Assembly: GCA_026983775.1 (NCBI GenBank)
Contig: JALSTK010000109.1
Span: forward strand, 62,001 to 126,000
Direction: 5' to 3'
Length of the DNA stretch: 64,000 bases
Origin: Calditrichia bacterium
GTDB lineage: Bacteria > Calditrichota > Calditrichia > Calditrichales > Calditrichaceae
Shown here: one piece after another, positions 50,657-58,739 of the stretch
Position numbering within the stretch: position 1 is the stretch's first letter
Layout of the letters: each line of letters opens with the position of its first letter
Made by a program: the position numbers and the translations under genes
The notes under the pieces: model-generated
Databases searched by the model: none
The model's input: only the letters and a program-made list of their open reading frames with translations
What the model was told of the DNA's origin: nothing

Positions 50657-50678
50657 AATTAAACCATCGGATGTTCTT

Positions 50679-50906
50679 TTAACGAATTTTCCAGAGACGC
50701 CATCTCTTGCGTAAACGGGGCATCCAGCCTTTACGTAACAGAGCCAAAGCCAACAGGAAGAGCAGTAAACCCGGAATAATGGGGACAACCAGCCCCAGCA
50801 AAGCTACCAGGATTAAAACAATGGCAATAAGGTACTTATTGCGACTAAAGGAGAGAATGTCTTCCCATAGAGGCTTCTTTTCTTTTTTTACAGGCAGGCG
50901 ATTCAT
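50679..50906 (-). CDS. Small membrane protein
   Basis: Start chosen at ATG 50906, preceded by GAGGA about five bases upstream; 75 aa. Two adjacent membrane helices, NKYLIAIVLILVALLGLVVP and PGLLLFLLALALLRKG, joined by a PIIPG turn, with a basic C-terminus (RLRKRWRLWK). It resembles PGPGW or DUF454-like small membrane proteins. Function unknown. It ends 22 bases from the convergent add gene and lies 43 bases past the epimerase on the same strand. Confidence 0.65.
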   Translation of the reverse strand: MNRLPVKKEKKPLWEDILSFSRNKYLIAIVLILVALLGLVVPIIPGLLLFLLALALLRKGWMPRLRKRWRLWKIR

Positions 50907-50949
50907 ATCTTCCTCTACGTGCATTCCGTCAAATAGTTACCGGATAGTA

Positions 50950-51930
50950 TTATAGCCAGCCCTGCTCTTCATACCATTTCAACGTCAGAACGATACCTTC
51001 TTCTAAGGAAATCCTGGTTTTAAAATTGAAATCAAGCATGGCTCTTTGCGGGCTGCATATCCAAAATTCCGGTTTCATTTCCAGAACTTTCTGGGAATTG
51101 AGGATGGAAGGCTTACCGGTCAATTTACTGATACCCTCGGAAAGCGAGGCGATTCCTTCCATAGCAAATACAGGAATATTAATACGAAATCCCCGTTTGC
51201 CGAAATATTGTAAGGTAAGTTCTGCCAGACGGTCTATGGAATAGGGTTGAGGATTCGCCAGAAAATAGGTTCTGCCCAGCGATTTTTTTCGTTCGGCGGC
51301 CAGGATCATACCATCGACCAGATCATAGACATGAATAAGACTCAAATAACGATCCGTTCCACCTAACTTAGGAATGAGGCCCTTTTTAAACGTCTTAAAA
51401 AGTTGCAGAACATCCGTATCCCGCGGGCCATAGACGGCAGGGGGACGAACGACGGTTATGGGAATTTCTTTTTTATGTGCCAGAGCATATTGTTCCGCTT
51501 TCAGCTTGCTTCTTCCGTAATCGGTTAACGGATGGGGTTCCGATTTTTCATCAATCGCATATAACCCGGGACTGGGACCGACGGCGGCCTGGGAGCTGGT
51601 TACCAGAAGACGATTTAAGGATACCTTACCGGCCCGAATCACATCGATCAGATTTTTAGTACCTTCATAATTTACCCGGTAATAATCATCCGTATTCCGG
51701 GCTTTGGTCACACCCGCCAAATGATAGATATAATCCATATCCTTAATCGCATGGCTCAGTGAATCTTTATCGCTCAGGCTCCCGTAAAAGCACTCCACAT
51801 TCAGGTCGGCTATCCAGTGCAGATTACTGGTAGTACGTACCAAAGTGCGTACTCTGTGTCCCTTTTCAAGTAATTTTTCCGCAAGAAAACTACCGACAAA
51901 TCCGGTTGCGCCGGTGATGAGTATATTCAT
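50950..51930 (-). CDS. NAD-dependent epimerase/reductase (CerR-like), candidate ketosphinganine reductase
   Basis: 326 aa extended short-chain dehydrogenase. GATGFVG (7-13) is the NAD(P) site; S112/S113 in LLVTSSQAA and Y138-x3-K142 in DYGRSK form the catalytic set. Homologous in type to Caulobacter CerR, the epimerase-like reductase that works with serine palmitoyltransferase and ceramide synthase in bacterial sphingolipid synthesis. It is divergent from and 164 bases apart from the serine-palmitoyltransferase-like gene, so the assignment rests on context. Alternatives are a sugar-nucleotide or dihydroflavonol-type reductase. Confidence 0.75.
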   Translation of the reverse strand: MNILITGATGFVGSFLAEKLLEKGHRVRTLVRTTSNLHWIADLNVECFYGSLSDKDSLSHAIKDMDYIYHLAGVTKARNTDDYYRVNYEGTKNLIDVIRAGKVSLNRLLVTSSQAAVGPSPGLYAIDEKSEPHPLTDYGRSKLKAEQYALAHKKEIPITVVRPPAVYGPRDTDVLQLFKTFKKGLIPKLGGTDRYLSLIHVYDLVDGMILAAERKKSLGRTYFLANPQPYSIDRLAELTLQYFGKRGFRINIPVFAMEGIASLSEGISKLTGKPSILNSQKVLEMKPEFWICSPQRAMLDFNFKTRISLEEGIVLTLKWYEEQGWL

Positions 51931-52094
51931 CCTGGATTCAATTCCTCATTTTACAATAAAGTACGTCATAAAACCGAATGTCTGATTTTAAAAAAGTTTA
52001 GCAAATATCGCAAACTTTTAATATATTTAAATTTATGATTTTCGAAGACCTAACAACAATCTAACATTTTTCAGACCTTTCCTCTGGAGGCGTT

Positions 52095-53282
52095 TTGGAC
52101 GTATTCGACAAATGTAAAAATTTTACCCGTGCCAAAGAAACCATGGAAGCCGGTATCTATCCCTATTTTAAGCCTCTTTCCGGCAATGACGGACCGCATG
52201 TTGAAATGGACGGCCATCAAACCATAATGATCGGTTCCAATAATTATTTAGGATTAACCCACGATCCCCGTGTGGTGGAAGCCGCCATTGAGGCTACCCG
52301 TAAATACGGTACCAGTTGCTCCGGGTCCCGCTTTCTGAACGGCACATTGGACCTGCATATTAAACTGGAGCATGAACTGGCCCGTTTTATGAATCGGGAA
52401 GCGGCCTTGATCTTCAGCACCGGATACATGAGCAATGTGGGTGCGATTTCTACTCTGGCCGGCAGAGATGATTATATCATTCTGGATAAATCCGATCATG
52501 CTTCTATCTACGCCGGAACCTGGGCTGCTTTGGGTGCGACGGTAAAACGTTTTCCCCATAAAAACATCAAAAAGCTCGATCAGCTCCTGGCTTCTCTGGA
52601 ACCGGACAGGGGGAAACTCATTGTCAGCGACGGTGTATTCAGTATGGAAGGCGATATTGTAAATCTGAAAGAGCTGATCCGTATCTCAAAAAAATATAAT
52701 GCCCGGCTTTATATCGATGAAGCCCACGGTCTGGGAGTGTTGGGTGAACATGGCCGCGGCGCTTGTGAATATTTGGGTTACGAAAAAGATGTCGATGTAG
52801 TTATGAGCACCTTTAGCAAATCGCTGGCCTCTTTAGGCGGTTTTATCGCGGCTTCCGAAGAGGTGATTAACTTTGTCAAACATTTTGCGGGCCCCTTAAT
52901 TTTTAGCGCTTCGCCGACGCCGGCTGCCACGGCGGCCGTGTTAAAGACGCTGGAAATTATTCGTAAAGAACCGGAGCATATGGAGCGTTTACGTCGTATT
53001 TCCGAAAAAATGCGTCGGGAATTTAAAAATCTCGGTTTTGATATCGGCGTCAGCAAAGATACGCCTATTATCCCGCTGTACATTCGGAATGATGAAAAGA
53101 CTTTTCTCTTTTGGAGACGTCTGTTCGATGCCGGTATCTTTGCTAACGCCGTCATTCCTCCGGCTGTTCCCCCGGAACAGGCTTTGATCCGGACCAGTTT
53201 TATGTCCACGCATTCCGATGAAGATCTGGATAAAATCCTGGATATTTGTGGCAAGGTCGGTAAAGATTTGGGTATTATTTAA
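52095..53282 (+). CDS. Serine palmitoyltransferase-like alpha-oxoamine synthase
   Basis: 395 aa PLP enzyme. TTG start with GGAGG about six bases before. Substrate and cofactor motifs: SNNYLGLTHDPRV, SCSGSRFLNG, YIDEAHGLGVLGEHGRG and STFSKSLASLGGF with the Schiff-base K242. The STFSKS block is typical of serine palmitoyltransferase; 2-amino-3-ketobutyrate ligase and 8-amino-7-oxononanoate synthase have different residues there. It would condense serine and acyl-CoA to 3-ketosphinganine. The GNAT-like partner starts 14 bases downstream and the reductase is divergent. The glycine-type alternatives cannot be ruled out by eye. Confidence 0.8.
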   Translation: MDVFDKCKNFTRAKETMEAGIYPYFKPLSGNDGPHVEMDGHQTIMIGSNNYLGLTHDPRVVEAAIEATRKYGTSCSGSRFLNGTLDLHIKLEHELARFMNREAALIFSTGYMSNVGAISTLAGRDDYIILDKSDHASIYAGTWAALGATVKRFPHKNIKKLDQLLASLEPDRGKLIVSDGVFSMEGDIVNLKELIRISKKYNARLYIDEAHGLGVLGEHGRGACEYLGYEKDVDVVMSTFSKSLASLGGFIAASEEVINFVKHFAGPLIFSASPTPAATAAVLKTLEIIRKEPEHMERLRRISEKMRREFKNLGFDIGVSKDTPIIPLYIRNDEKTFLFWRRLFDAGIFANAVIPPAVPPEQALIRTSFMSTHSDEDLDKILDICGKVGKDLGII

Positions 53283-53296
53283 CAGAGGAGCTTCTC

Positions 53297-54427
53297 ATGG
53301 CTGTGCGCATTGTGCCGGTAGAAACGAAACGGCAGAAAAAGCAGTTTATTGATCTGGAATGGGATTTAAACAAAAACACGCCGAATTGGGTCGGCCCCTT
53401 AAGGATGGAACGCAAAGAAATTCTCGACACCCAAAAAAATCCTTTTTTTCAGCATGCCGATATCCATCTTTTCTTAGCCTATAAAGAGGAAAATCTTTGC
53501 GGGCGGATCGCCGCTATCACCAATGACAATTATAATCAATTCCATGGGAACAATGAAGGCTTCTGGGGATTTTTCGAAAGTATTAATGATCAGGATGTGG
53601 CCAATGCATTGTTTGATGCAGCCGCCAACTGGTTAAAAGAAAAGGGTAAAGACAGGATGCTCGGCCCGGAAAATCCTTCTACCAATGATGAAGTGGGCAC
53701 TTTGATCGATGGCTTCGATACGCCGCCTTTTATTATGATGACCCACAATCCGGACTATTATCCCCGGCTGATCGAAACTTATGGGCACACCAAGGCCAAA
53801 GACCTTTACGCCTGGTTTGCCACTACCGAAGGCGCCGAAAAAAGTATCTCCGAAAAAATGTTACGCGTTTCCGGAAAAATATTAAAAAAATATGATATCA
53901 AATTACGTCATATTAACCTGAAAAATCTCAAGGATGAGATTGCGGTAATGAAAGATATCTACAACAATGCCTGGAGCAAAAACTGGGGTTTTGTACCCCT
54001 TACCGACCCGGAGTTCGATAAGCTTGCCAAAGATTTAAAACCGGTTGCCGACGAAAATTTACTTTTTGTAGCCGAAAAATCCGGTCAGCCGATCGCCTTC
54101 AGTTTAACGATTCCGAATGTCAATGAAATTTTTCAAAAAAATCCCAGCGGCCGGCTTTTCCCGCTCGGTATTTTCAAACTGCTCTTAGGCTTAAAAAAAA
54201 TTAAGACGGTTCGTGTTCTGGTCCTTGGGGTCAAAAGGGAATATCAGTTTTTAGGTCTCGGTTCCATCTTTTATATAGAGACCATTCGTACAGCTAAAAA
54301 ACGGGGTTATTACGGAGGGGAAATGTCCTGGATTCTGGAAGATAACCATCCCATGAATCAGGCCATCGAATCGATCGGTTCCAAGTGCTACAAGACCTAT
54401 CGCATTTATCAGTATCCGCTAACCTGA
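53297..54427 (+). CDS. GNAT-fold acyltransferase-like protein (candidate bacterial ceramide synthase)
   Basis: 376 aa. RBS AGAGGAG upstream of the ATG. The C-terminal part (about 220-376) has a GNAT pattern with LLFVAEKSGQPIAFSLTI, then VLVLGVKREYQFLGLGSIFY near the acyl-CoA loop, and EMSWILEDNHPMNQAIESIG. The N-terminal part resembles the first half of a tandem GNAT. In Caulobacter the ceramide synthase bCerS is a GNAT-like protein of about this length in the same locus as Spt and CerR. Placement here 14 bases after the Spt-like gene supports that role; it is inference. An ordinary N-acyltransferase is the alternative. Confidence 0.72.
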   Translation: MAVRIVPVETKRQKKQFIDLEWDLNKNTPNWVGPLRMERKEILDTQKNPFFQHADIHLFLAYKEENLCGRIAAITNDNYNQFHGNNEGFWGFFESINDQDVANALFDAAANWLKEKGKDRMLGPENPSTNDEVGTLIDGFDTPPFIMMTHNPDYYPRLIETYGHTKAKDLYAWFATTEGAEKSISEKMLRVSGKILKKYDIKLRHINLKNLKDEIAVMKDIYNNAWSKNWGFVPLTDPEFDKLAKDLKPVADENLLFVAEKSGQPIAFSLTIPNVNEIFQKNPSGRLFPLGIFKLLLGLKKIKTVRVLVLGVKREYQFLGLGSIFYIETIRTAKKRGYYGGEMSWILEDNHPMNQAIESIGSKCYKTYRIYQYPLT

Positions 54428-54465: not shown

Positions 54466-54498
54466 CAAAAAAAGCCCGCTGTAACAGCGGGCTTTTTT
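54466..54498. terminator. Bidirectional terminator
   Basis: AGCCCGCTG-TAA-CAGCGGGCT (54473-54493) flanked by A run and T run. It sits between the convergent GNAT and Cys-rich genes and can serve both. Confidence 0.93.
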
Positions 54499-54519
54499 CA
54501 TTCCGAATGAAAACCTACA

Positions 54520-57371: not shown

Positions 57372-57710
57372 ACAATATCATATATAAAACGCAGGCAAAT
57401 ATATTCGATCAGAGGCATTTTGTCAAGTAAAATCTTCGCGCATTTTCAGCTACTTTCAATATCTCTCTCCTTAATTGTCCCGAAAGAAGCAATACCAATC
57501 GGATTAAACACCTGTTGATGCTTGCTATACAGACTTCGATTTCCTAAATTTGACGCTTAATGAATAATGCCAGGGTCTTATGTACAAAATATGCGCTGCG
57601 GATAAATCGGGCTGTTTAGTCGGCGCTTTTTATAAGGACGAAACAGGCCGGTGAGGCAGATCTCATAGCGGAGAGGATTTAAAGGGAAAAAGACAATTAA
57701 AGAGGTGCGT
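57372..57710. other. Intergenic region between tRNA-Arg and the DHS-like gene
   Basis: No credible gene in these 339 bases between divergent units. It should hold promoters for tRNA-Arg and for the deoxyhypusine-synthase-like gene. No structured leader was recognised. Confidence 0.4.
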
Positions 57711-58739
57711 TTGGATAAAAAGGATTTCCTTCGGCAAACCGTCGAACCTATTGACATTACCAAAACCAATGTTGTAGCTCTGGTCGATGCAATGGGCAAA
57801 ATGGCTTTTCAGGCCCGTAATTTAAACCGGGCGGCTCAAATTTTTAACAGGATGCAGCAAGACCATGAGGTCGTTATTTTCCTTACTTTGTCCGGTTCAC
57901 TGATCAGTGCCGGTTTAAAAAAAGTGATCACAACGCTGATTGAAAACAATATGGTGGATGTCCTTGTTTCCACGGGCGCCAACATGGTCGATCAGGATTT
58001 TTTCGAAGCATTGGGCTTCCACCACTATCAGGGTACACCCTTTGCGGATGATAATCAGTTAAGGACATTGATGATTGACCGTATTTATGACACCTTTATT
58101 GATGAAGAAGAACTACGTATCTGCGATCATACCGTTGCCGGCATCTGCGATCATCTGGAACCGCGTCCCTATTCTTCCCGTGAATTCATTAAGGAAATGG
58201 GCCGGTATTTAGAGGAGAATTCTCAATACGCGCTCAGCCGGGAGGACTCGATTATCTACCGGTGTTACAAAAAAGACGTTCCCATATTCTGTCCCGCCTT
58301 TTCCGACTCCTCCGCCGGTTTCGGGCTGATTTACCATCAGTATCATAGCAAAGGGCCAAAGGTTACTATCGACTCGGCCGCAGACTTTCTGGAATTGACC
58401 AAAATTAAAATAGCCCACAAGGAATCGGGTATCTTTATGGTTGGCGGCGGCGTTCCTAAAAATTTCGTACAGGATATTGTGGTTGCCTCCGAAATTCTGG
58501 ATCAGGAAGCGCCCATGCACAAATATGCCGTCCAGATTACGGTTGCCGATGAACGCGATGGCGCTTTGTCCGGTTCAACCTTAAAAGAAGCATCCTCCTG
58601 GGGCAAGGTAGAAACCACCTATGAACAGATGGTTTTTGCCGAAGCGACCATCGCCTTCCCCTTGATCGCCGGTTATGCATATCACAAATATAATTGGAAA
58701 CAGCGTCCGGAACGGCGTCTAAACCATTTGTTTCTTTAG
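57711..58739 (+). CDS. Deoxyhypusine synthase-like protein
   Basis: Start chosen at TTG 57711 because AGAGG lies five bases before and the resulting start MDKKDFLRQTVEPIDITK fits the family; a GTG six bases upstream is part of that ribosome site. 342 aa. NAD-binding segments LTLSGSLISAGLKK, STGANMVDQDFF and GGGVPKNF are present, and the essential lysine K299 in EASSWGKVE is kept. Bacteria lack the eIF5A substrate; bacterial members are thought to make homospermidine or act on other polyamine substrates. First of three genes on the plus strand with a Rho-N-like protein and hldD. Substrate unproven. Confidence 0.88.
   Translation: MDKKDFLRQTVEPIDITKTNVVALVDAMGKMAFQARNLNRAAQIFNRMQQDHEVVIFLTLSGSLISAGLKKVITTLIENNMVDVLVSTGANMVDQDFFEALGFHHYQGTPFADDNQLRTLMIDRIYDTFIDEEELRICDHTVAGICDHLEPRPYSSREFIKEMGRYLEENSQYALSREDSIIYRCYKKDVPIFCPAFSDSSAGFGLIYHQYHSKGPKVTIDSAADFLELTKIKIAHKESGIFMVGGGVPKNFVQDIVVASEILDQEAPMHKYAVQITVADERDGALSGSTLKEASSWGKVETTYEQMVFAEATIAFPLIAGYAYHKYNWKQRPERRLNHLFL

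Follow-up and report, generated by a model that had tools for sequence, protein, structure and literature searches.

Ceramide is the backbone of the sphingolipids, lipids long considered rare in bacteria, and its synthesis by bacteria is known. Caulobacter crescentus has for this purpose an alpha-oxoamine synthase (spt, CC_1162), a GNAT N-acyltransferase (bcerS, CC_1154) and an extended short-chain dehydrogenase/reductase, or SDR (cerR, CC_1164). It requires in addition acpR and aasR, and its cerS lies in a separate operon (PMC11324152). The subject of this study is a stretch of 64,000 nucleotides (henceforth the window) from a member of the Calditrichota, Calditrichia bacterium (GenBank assembly GCA_026983775.1, contig JALSTK010000109.1, positions 62,001 to 126,000 of the forward strand), in which three adjacent genes encode the same three types of enzyme. 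Judged by their sequences, they very probably form a cluster for building the ceramide backbone by the bacterial route, in which cerR diverges from spt and bcerS.

An earlier note on this DNA had read the genes as the counterparts of Spt, bCerS and CerR. The three open reading frames (ORFs) do lie where it placed them, with the motif STFSKSLASLGGF and its K242 in the pyridoxal-phosphate (PLP) enzyme, the GNAT gene 14 bases downstream and the SDR gene divergent. The reading itself is supported by a match of the first protein to an Spt family, by full-length homology of the second, and by the apparent orthology of the third with the SDRs of other clusters. The host genome comprises 4.03 Mb in 179 contigs and is 99.5% complete, and its closest named relatives are almost without exception Calditrichota/Caldithrix MAGs.

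Identity of the three proteins

The best NCBIfam family of the PLP enzyme is NF047600, serine palmitoyltransferase, at 512.6 bits, as compared to 356.6 for BioF (8-amino-7-oxononanoate synthase) and 329 for Kbl (glycine C-acetyltransferase); the Kbl and BioF of E. coli each pass the cut-offs of their own models. The best match in the PDB is the SPT of Sphingobacterium multivorum (3a2b, 408 bits), with lower scores for the sphingomonad SPTs (at most 288 bits), Kbl (about 208-220), BioF (198) and SulA (about 197). The motif STFSKSLASLGGF provides the Schiff-base lysine, K242, and also conserved are the stacking histidine H135, the PLP contacts D208 and H211, and the carboxylate-binding arginine R366. 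Both the asparagine of the SNNY motif and A272 are invariant in 16 Calditrichota sequences. Alanine is found at the latter position in the Spts of S. multivorum, S. wittichii and Bacteroides as well, where E. coli Kbl has asparagine and BioF threonine.

A maximum-likelihood tree with few outgroups unites the enzyme with all Spts and separates it from the Kbl and BioF of E. coli (support 96/92). Within the Spts it falls outside the pair formed by Bacteroides and Sphingobacterium, and the tree, which includes one long-branch Acidobacteria sequence of unsure placement, does not resolve the deeper order. The clustering with Kbl or BioF that the earlier note saw as the danger to its proposal therefore did not occur: scores, structures, residues and tree all give Spt. 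The enzyme is the sole alpha-oxoamine synthase found in the genome. Neither bioB nor tdh was found there above cut-off, so that a role in the metabolism of biotin or threonine would leave it without partner enzymes.

An Spt-like enzyme, 50% identical, is encoded on a Priestia megaterium plasmid (L136:5001-6215) beside a methyltransferase and an acyltransferase, with no annotated GNAT within the 11 kb examined.

The GNAT protein matches no NCBIfam model at 1e-3 and has a weak match to the Pfam GNAT family, and searches of PDB sequences with the protein or its profile returned nothing significant. The earlier note had suggested a structure prediction, and the AlphaFold model is a confident tandem GNAT fold (predicted local distance difference test score, pLDDT, 92.0; predicted template-modelling score, pTM, 0.90); among PDB structures it most resembles tandem GNAT acetyltransferases (best E 4.6e-13). 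The same note had allowed that the protein might prove unrelated to bCerS. It is a full-length homologue of GNATs from Sphingomonas and Bacteroides, which are sphingolipid-producing genera: it shares 36% identity over 392 columns (E 6e-79) with the GNAT of the Sphingomonas parapaucimobilis sphingolipid locus and 29% (E 1e-50) with a GNAT of Bacteroides finegoldii. Homologues in Roseomonas, Rahnella, E. coli (yghO), Rubrobacter, Aureispira and Streptomyces likewise lie close to Spt-type genes.

In one E. coli record (L118:1531-7128), genes for an Spt-like enzyme, an acyl carrier protein (ACP), an SDR and a fatty acyl-AMP ligase are divergent from yghO, and by their sequences this set looks like a complete ceramide-type cluster.

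The SDR carries the Rossmann motif TGATGFVG and, as its Ser-Tyr-Lys catalytic triad, S112/S113 and the pair Y138-x3-K142, all of them invariant across 12 cluster SDRs save G9 of the motif. Its assignment among the many SDRs of the genome was approached by ranking the paralogues that a search of the host genome recovered. Ten SDRs were drawn from Spt/GNAT clusters elsewhere among bacteria, ranging from Sphingomonas to Planctomycetota, and every one found its best match in the window SDR, mostly at about twice the next score (for the Sphingomonas SDR, 98.6 bits against 48.1). It is thus apparently orthologous to the SDRs of those clusters. Caulobacter CerR has been likened to NDUFA9 (PMC11087976), and NDUFA9 chains do appear among the PDB matches of the window SDR, though weakly (E 8e-8 to 3e-7), and many other SDRs match at least as well. 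In 12 of 12 aligned cluster SDRs, among them the Sphingomonas and E. coli proteins (Caulobacter CerR is not in the alignment), the NAD motif lies too close to the N-terminus for a signal peptide to precede it. This would more simply fit a cytoplasmic enzyme; for Caulobacter CerR a periplasmic location has been reported.

Linkage of the genes and layout of the locus

Eighty nearest relatives were fetched by the GNAT protein alone. In 52 of them Spt is directly upstream on the same strand, and 24 of those 52 have a divergent SDR within 2 kb, so the grouping of the three genes is not chance. The 24 loci span several phyla, and the order found in the window (SDR leftward, then Spt and GNAT rightward) recurs in Aureispira (Bacteroidota) and in loci from Ignavibacteria, Zixibacteria and Planctomycetota, while all three genes run in the same direction in Rubrobacter and Streptomyces. 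Twelve relatives in which GNAT does not adjoin Spt were searched for an Spt orthologue, and each of the 12 genomes has one elsewhere (49-55% identity), which rules out the idea that the GNAT gene is a chance neighbour.

Within the phylum, 36 of the 40 Calditrichota genomes examined have Spt, 36 have the GNAT and 33 the SDR. For Spt, 37 genomes gave a match at E <1e-40, and one was dropped since its single match (31%) resembled Kbl/BioF. Both Spt and GNAT are missing from three genomes; a fourth has GNAT alone and a fifth a fragment of Spt alone. The overlap of the absences (four and four, three shared) has a probability of about 0.002 by chance, in a hand calculation that ignores relatedness and genome completeness.

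The coordinates of the features are collected in Table 1. A ribosome-binding site (TGGAGG, near 52084) precedes the start codon of Spt at 52095. Between the Spt stop (TAA, at 53282) and the ATG of the GNAT gene at 53297 there are 14 bases, which contain a second such site, AGAGGAG. The two genes look like one operon and would then be co-transcribed. In the region shared with the divergent SDR gene (51931-52094), promoter-like matches are no commoner than in shuffled sequence. The hairpin beyond bcerS is a probable terminator and possibly, to judge from its symmetry, serves both directions.

Table 1. Features of the putative ceramide cluster, in window coordinates.
Feature	Coordinates	Strand	Remarks
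CerR-type NAD-dependent SDR (putative 3-oxo-ceramide / 3-ketosphinganine reductase)	50950..51930	-	326 aa; Pfam Epimerase PF01370, 9.3e-39
Intergenic/promoter region shared by divergent cerR and spt-bcerS	51931..52094	.	164 bases; letters read directly
Serine palmitoyltransferase (Spt)	52095..53282	+	395 aa, TTG start; H135, D208, H211, K242, A272, R366
bCerS-type tandem-GNAT N-acyltransferase (putative ceramide synthase)	53297..54427	+	376 aa
Near-perfect GC-rich hairpin between bcerS and a convergent rhomboid gene	54466..54500	.	16-pair stem; T-tract on minus strand

The genes that flank the cluster vary. In three relatives the SDR gene is followed, in the same direction, by genes for a methyltransferase and BshC (bacillithiol) (L032:2893-5304, L034:3066-5448, L039:3346-5813), and these are missing from the corresponding interval of the window, between adenosine deaminase and SDR (50657-50949). 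Two Calditrichota loci (L032:9272-11941, L055:9128-11745) have, after GNAT and on the opposite strand, a second, distant SDR (26-28% identity) and two further ORFs, which in L032 encode a CAAX protease-like protein and a PAP2 protein. The PAP2 protein, of which the window's genome encodes homologues at other loci, might be an enzyme of the head group or a phosphatase. Taken together, the additional genes around the relatives' clusters (methyltransferase and BshC; SDR, CAAX protease-like and PAP2) include no consistent head-group enzyme. Elsewhere in the window, at 57705-58739, there is a gene of the deoxyhypusine synthase family (Pfam DS, E 1.7e-101), here in a bacterium.

The predicted pathway and its alternatives

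From the homologies, the catalytic residues, the linkage and the co-occurrence within the phylum, I infer the following reactions. Spt would join a fatty acyl thioester to an L-amino acid, serine being the likeliest, in a condensation that gives 3-ketosphinganine; the tandem-GNAT bCerS would N-acylate the long-chain base; and the extended SDR, CerR, would use NAD(P)H to reduce the ketone at position 3, yielding dihydroceramide. The order of acylation and reduction is disputed for Caulobacter (PMC11087976; PMC11324152), and the CerR homologues described here bear on the dispute over where and when CerR acts. The likeliest product is predicted to be (dihydro)ceramide. The earlier note's claim that the organism makes sphingolipids by the bacterial route thus stands as to the genes, which are present, while formation of the product would follow from what the genes are predicted to do.

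Several observations weigh against this interpretation. The 512.6 bits of the window Spt fall short of the curated cut-off of NF047600 (SerpalmtaseCFB), which is 640. The Spts of the complete clusters of Aureispira and Rubrobacter also fall under it, and I have filed the window protein as an Spt and not as a member of that subfamily. The GNAT protein shares no more than 29% identity with its Bacteroides homologue, and some Calditrichota genomes (G002, G006, G008, G012, G022, G026) have further GNAT paralogues at 29-46% identity, so that more than one function may be represented in the family. No acpR or aasR was recognised by eye beside spt in a list of the ORFs of 90 or more amino acids between 43794 and 62717, from which a shorter ACP would escape, but there is no room for one between the three genes. 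Finally, no lipid analysis of any of the Calditrichota was found in the literature.

The alternative that survives best is that the same three-enzyme logic leads to another long-chain-base lipid: a 1-deoxyceramide (from alanine), a lysine-ceramide or a sulfonolipid (from cysteate). I consider this unlikely, if by no means negligible. The amino acid chosen by an Spt is not readable from its sequence, and a metagenomic study of the Black Sea links anaerobes there to 1-deoxy- and Lys-ceramides and presents Spt as thought to take other amino acids (PMC11334938). The sulfonolipid version is the one that the residues disfavour. The alanine of Spt, as opposed to Lys281 of SulA, is reported to be the residue that distinguishes the two enzymes (PMC9304779). 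Lysine occupies this position in the known SulA enzymes; A272 of the window enzyme rules out its identification as SulA, and its similarity to structures of SulA and cysteate acyltransferase is half of that to Spt.

That the SDR is instead a sugar epimerase or a hopanoid-associated, HpnA-like epimerase, adjacent to spt by chance, is improbable. HpnA is indeed its best NCBIfam match, and the genome has many SDR paralogues. The match, however, scores 146 bits against a cut-off of 367.65, the divergent position beside spt is conserved in the 24 loci mentioned above, and the paralogues lose by a wide margin as matches to the SDRs of other Spt clusters. Score and synteny together led me to reject the HpnA identity.

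Most improbable of all, and largely refuted, is the reading of the PLP enzyme as a Kbl or BioF with unrelated neighbours, which can appeal to a shared superfamily, the secondary family matches and the lack of any other alpha-oxoamine synthase in the genome, but which was ruled out by the family scores, best structure, diagnostic residues and tree, by the failure of bioB and tdh to appear above cut-off, by the conservation of the Spt neighbours across phyla and by the separate alpha-oxoamine synthase paralogues (29-39%) that many relatives hold besides their Spt orthologue.

Returning to the reading of the locus as a ceramide-backbone cluster, a broader proposal may be made tentatively, with rather less than even confidence: that ceramide-type lipids are ancestral to and nearly universal in the membranes of Calditrichota, made by way of an spt-bcerS operon with, unlike the Rhodobacterial one, no adjacent dedicated ACP or acyl-ACP synthetase, and possibly with a base derived from an amino acid other than serine, as in 1-deoxy- or lysine-ceramide.

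Significance and comparison with known systems

No report of sphingolipids in Caldithrix or Calditrichota was found in the literature, papers containing both words having been judged by title and abstract. The Black Sea study, published in 2024, reports Spt-like genes in 38 phyla and raises the number of phyla inferred to have sphingolipids from 9 to 40 (PMC11334938). The trait is thus no rarity beyond Bacteroidetes and Proteobacteria, which corrects the earlier note, where it was called of interest outside these groups. Calditrichota is not named in the main text of that study, and its prior inclusion in the supplementary list of the paper is possible. The Calditrichota genes add to a pathway whose inferred range already covered some 40 phyla and do not constitute a new kind of system, and their novelty is modest. 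What they offer is gene-level evidence for sphingolipid synthesis across nearly the whole of a barely cultured phylum, in which Caldithrix might allow the lipids to be tested directly.

The closest characterised Spt to that of the window is the S. multivorum enzyme, with which all catalytic residues are shared. Two plasmid clusters with similar gene content differ in arrangement: that of Aureispira anguillae pAUEa (L116) has Spt, then GNAT, and an SDR in the same divergent order, and that of Rubrobacter radiotolerans (L114), also with Spt, then GNAT, and an SDR, has all of its genes in one direction. I know of no experimental test of either. The locus of S. parapaucimobilis (L111), whose Spt is near-identical to the crystallised SPT 2jg2 (907 bits), contains homologues of all three window proteins, but its Spt is of the alphaproteobacterial subtype, unlike that of the window, and there SDR, ACP and Spt are together while the GNAT gene lies 6 kb off beside lptF/lptG and a desaturase.

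The layout described here is somewhat different from the Rhodobacterial one. Set against Caulobacter, the window has its spt and bcerS-type genes only 14 bases apart, its cerR divergent from them, and neither a dedicated ACP nor a dedicated acyl-ACP synthetase next to them. It has been stated that the bacterial cerS is always in a different operon from spt (PMC11324152), and the spt-bcerS arrangement of the window is at odds with that statement.

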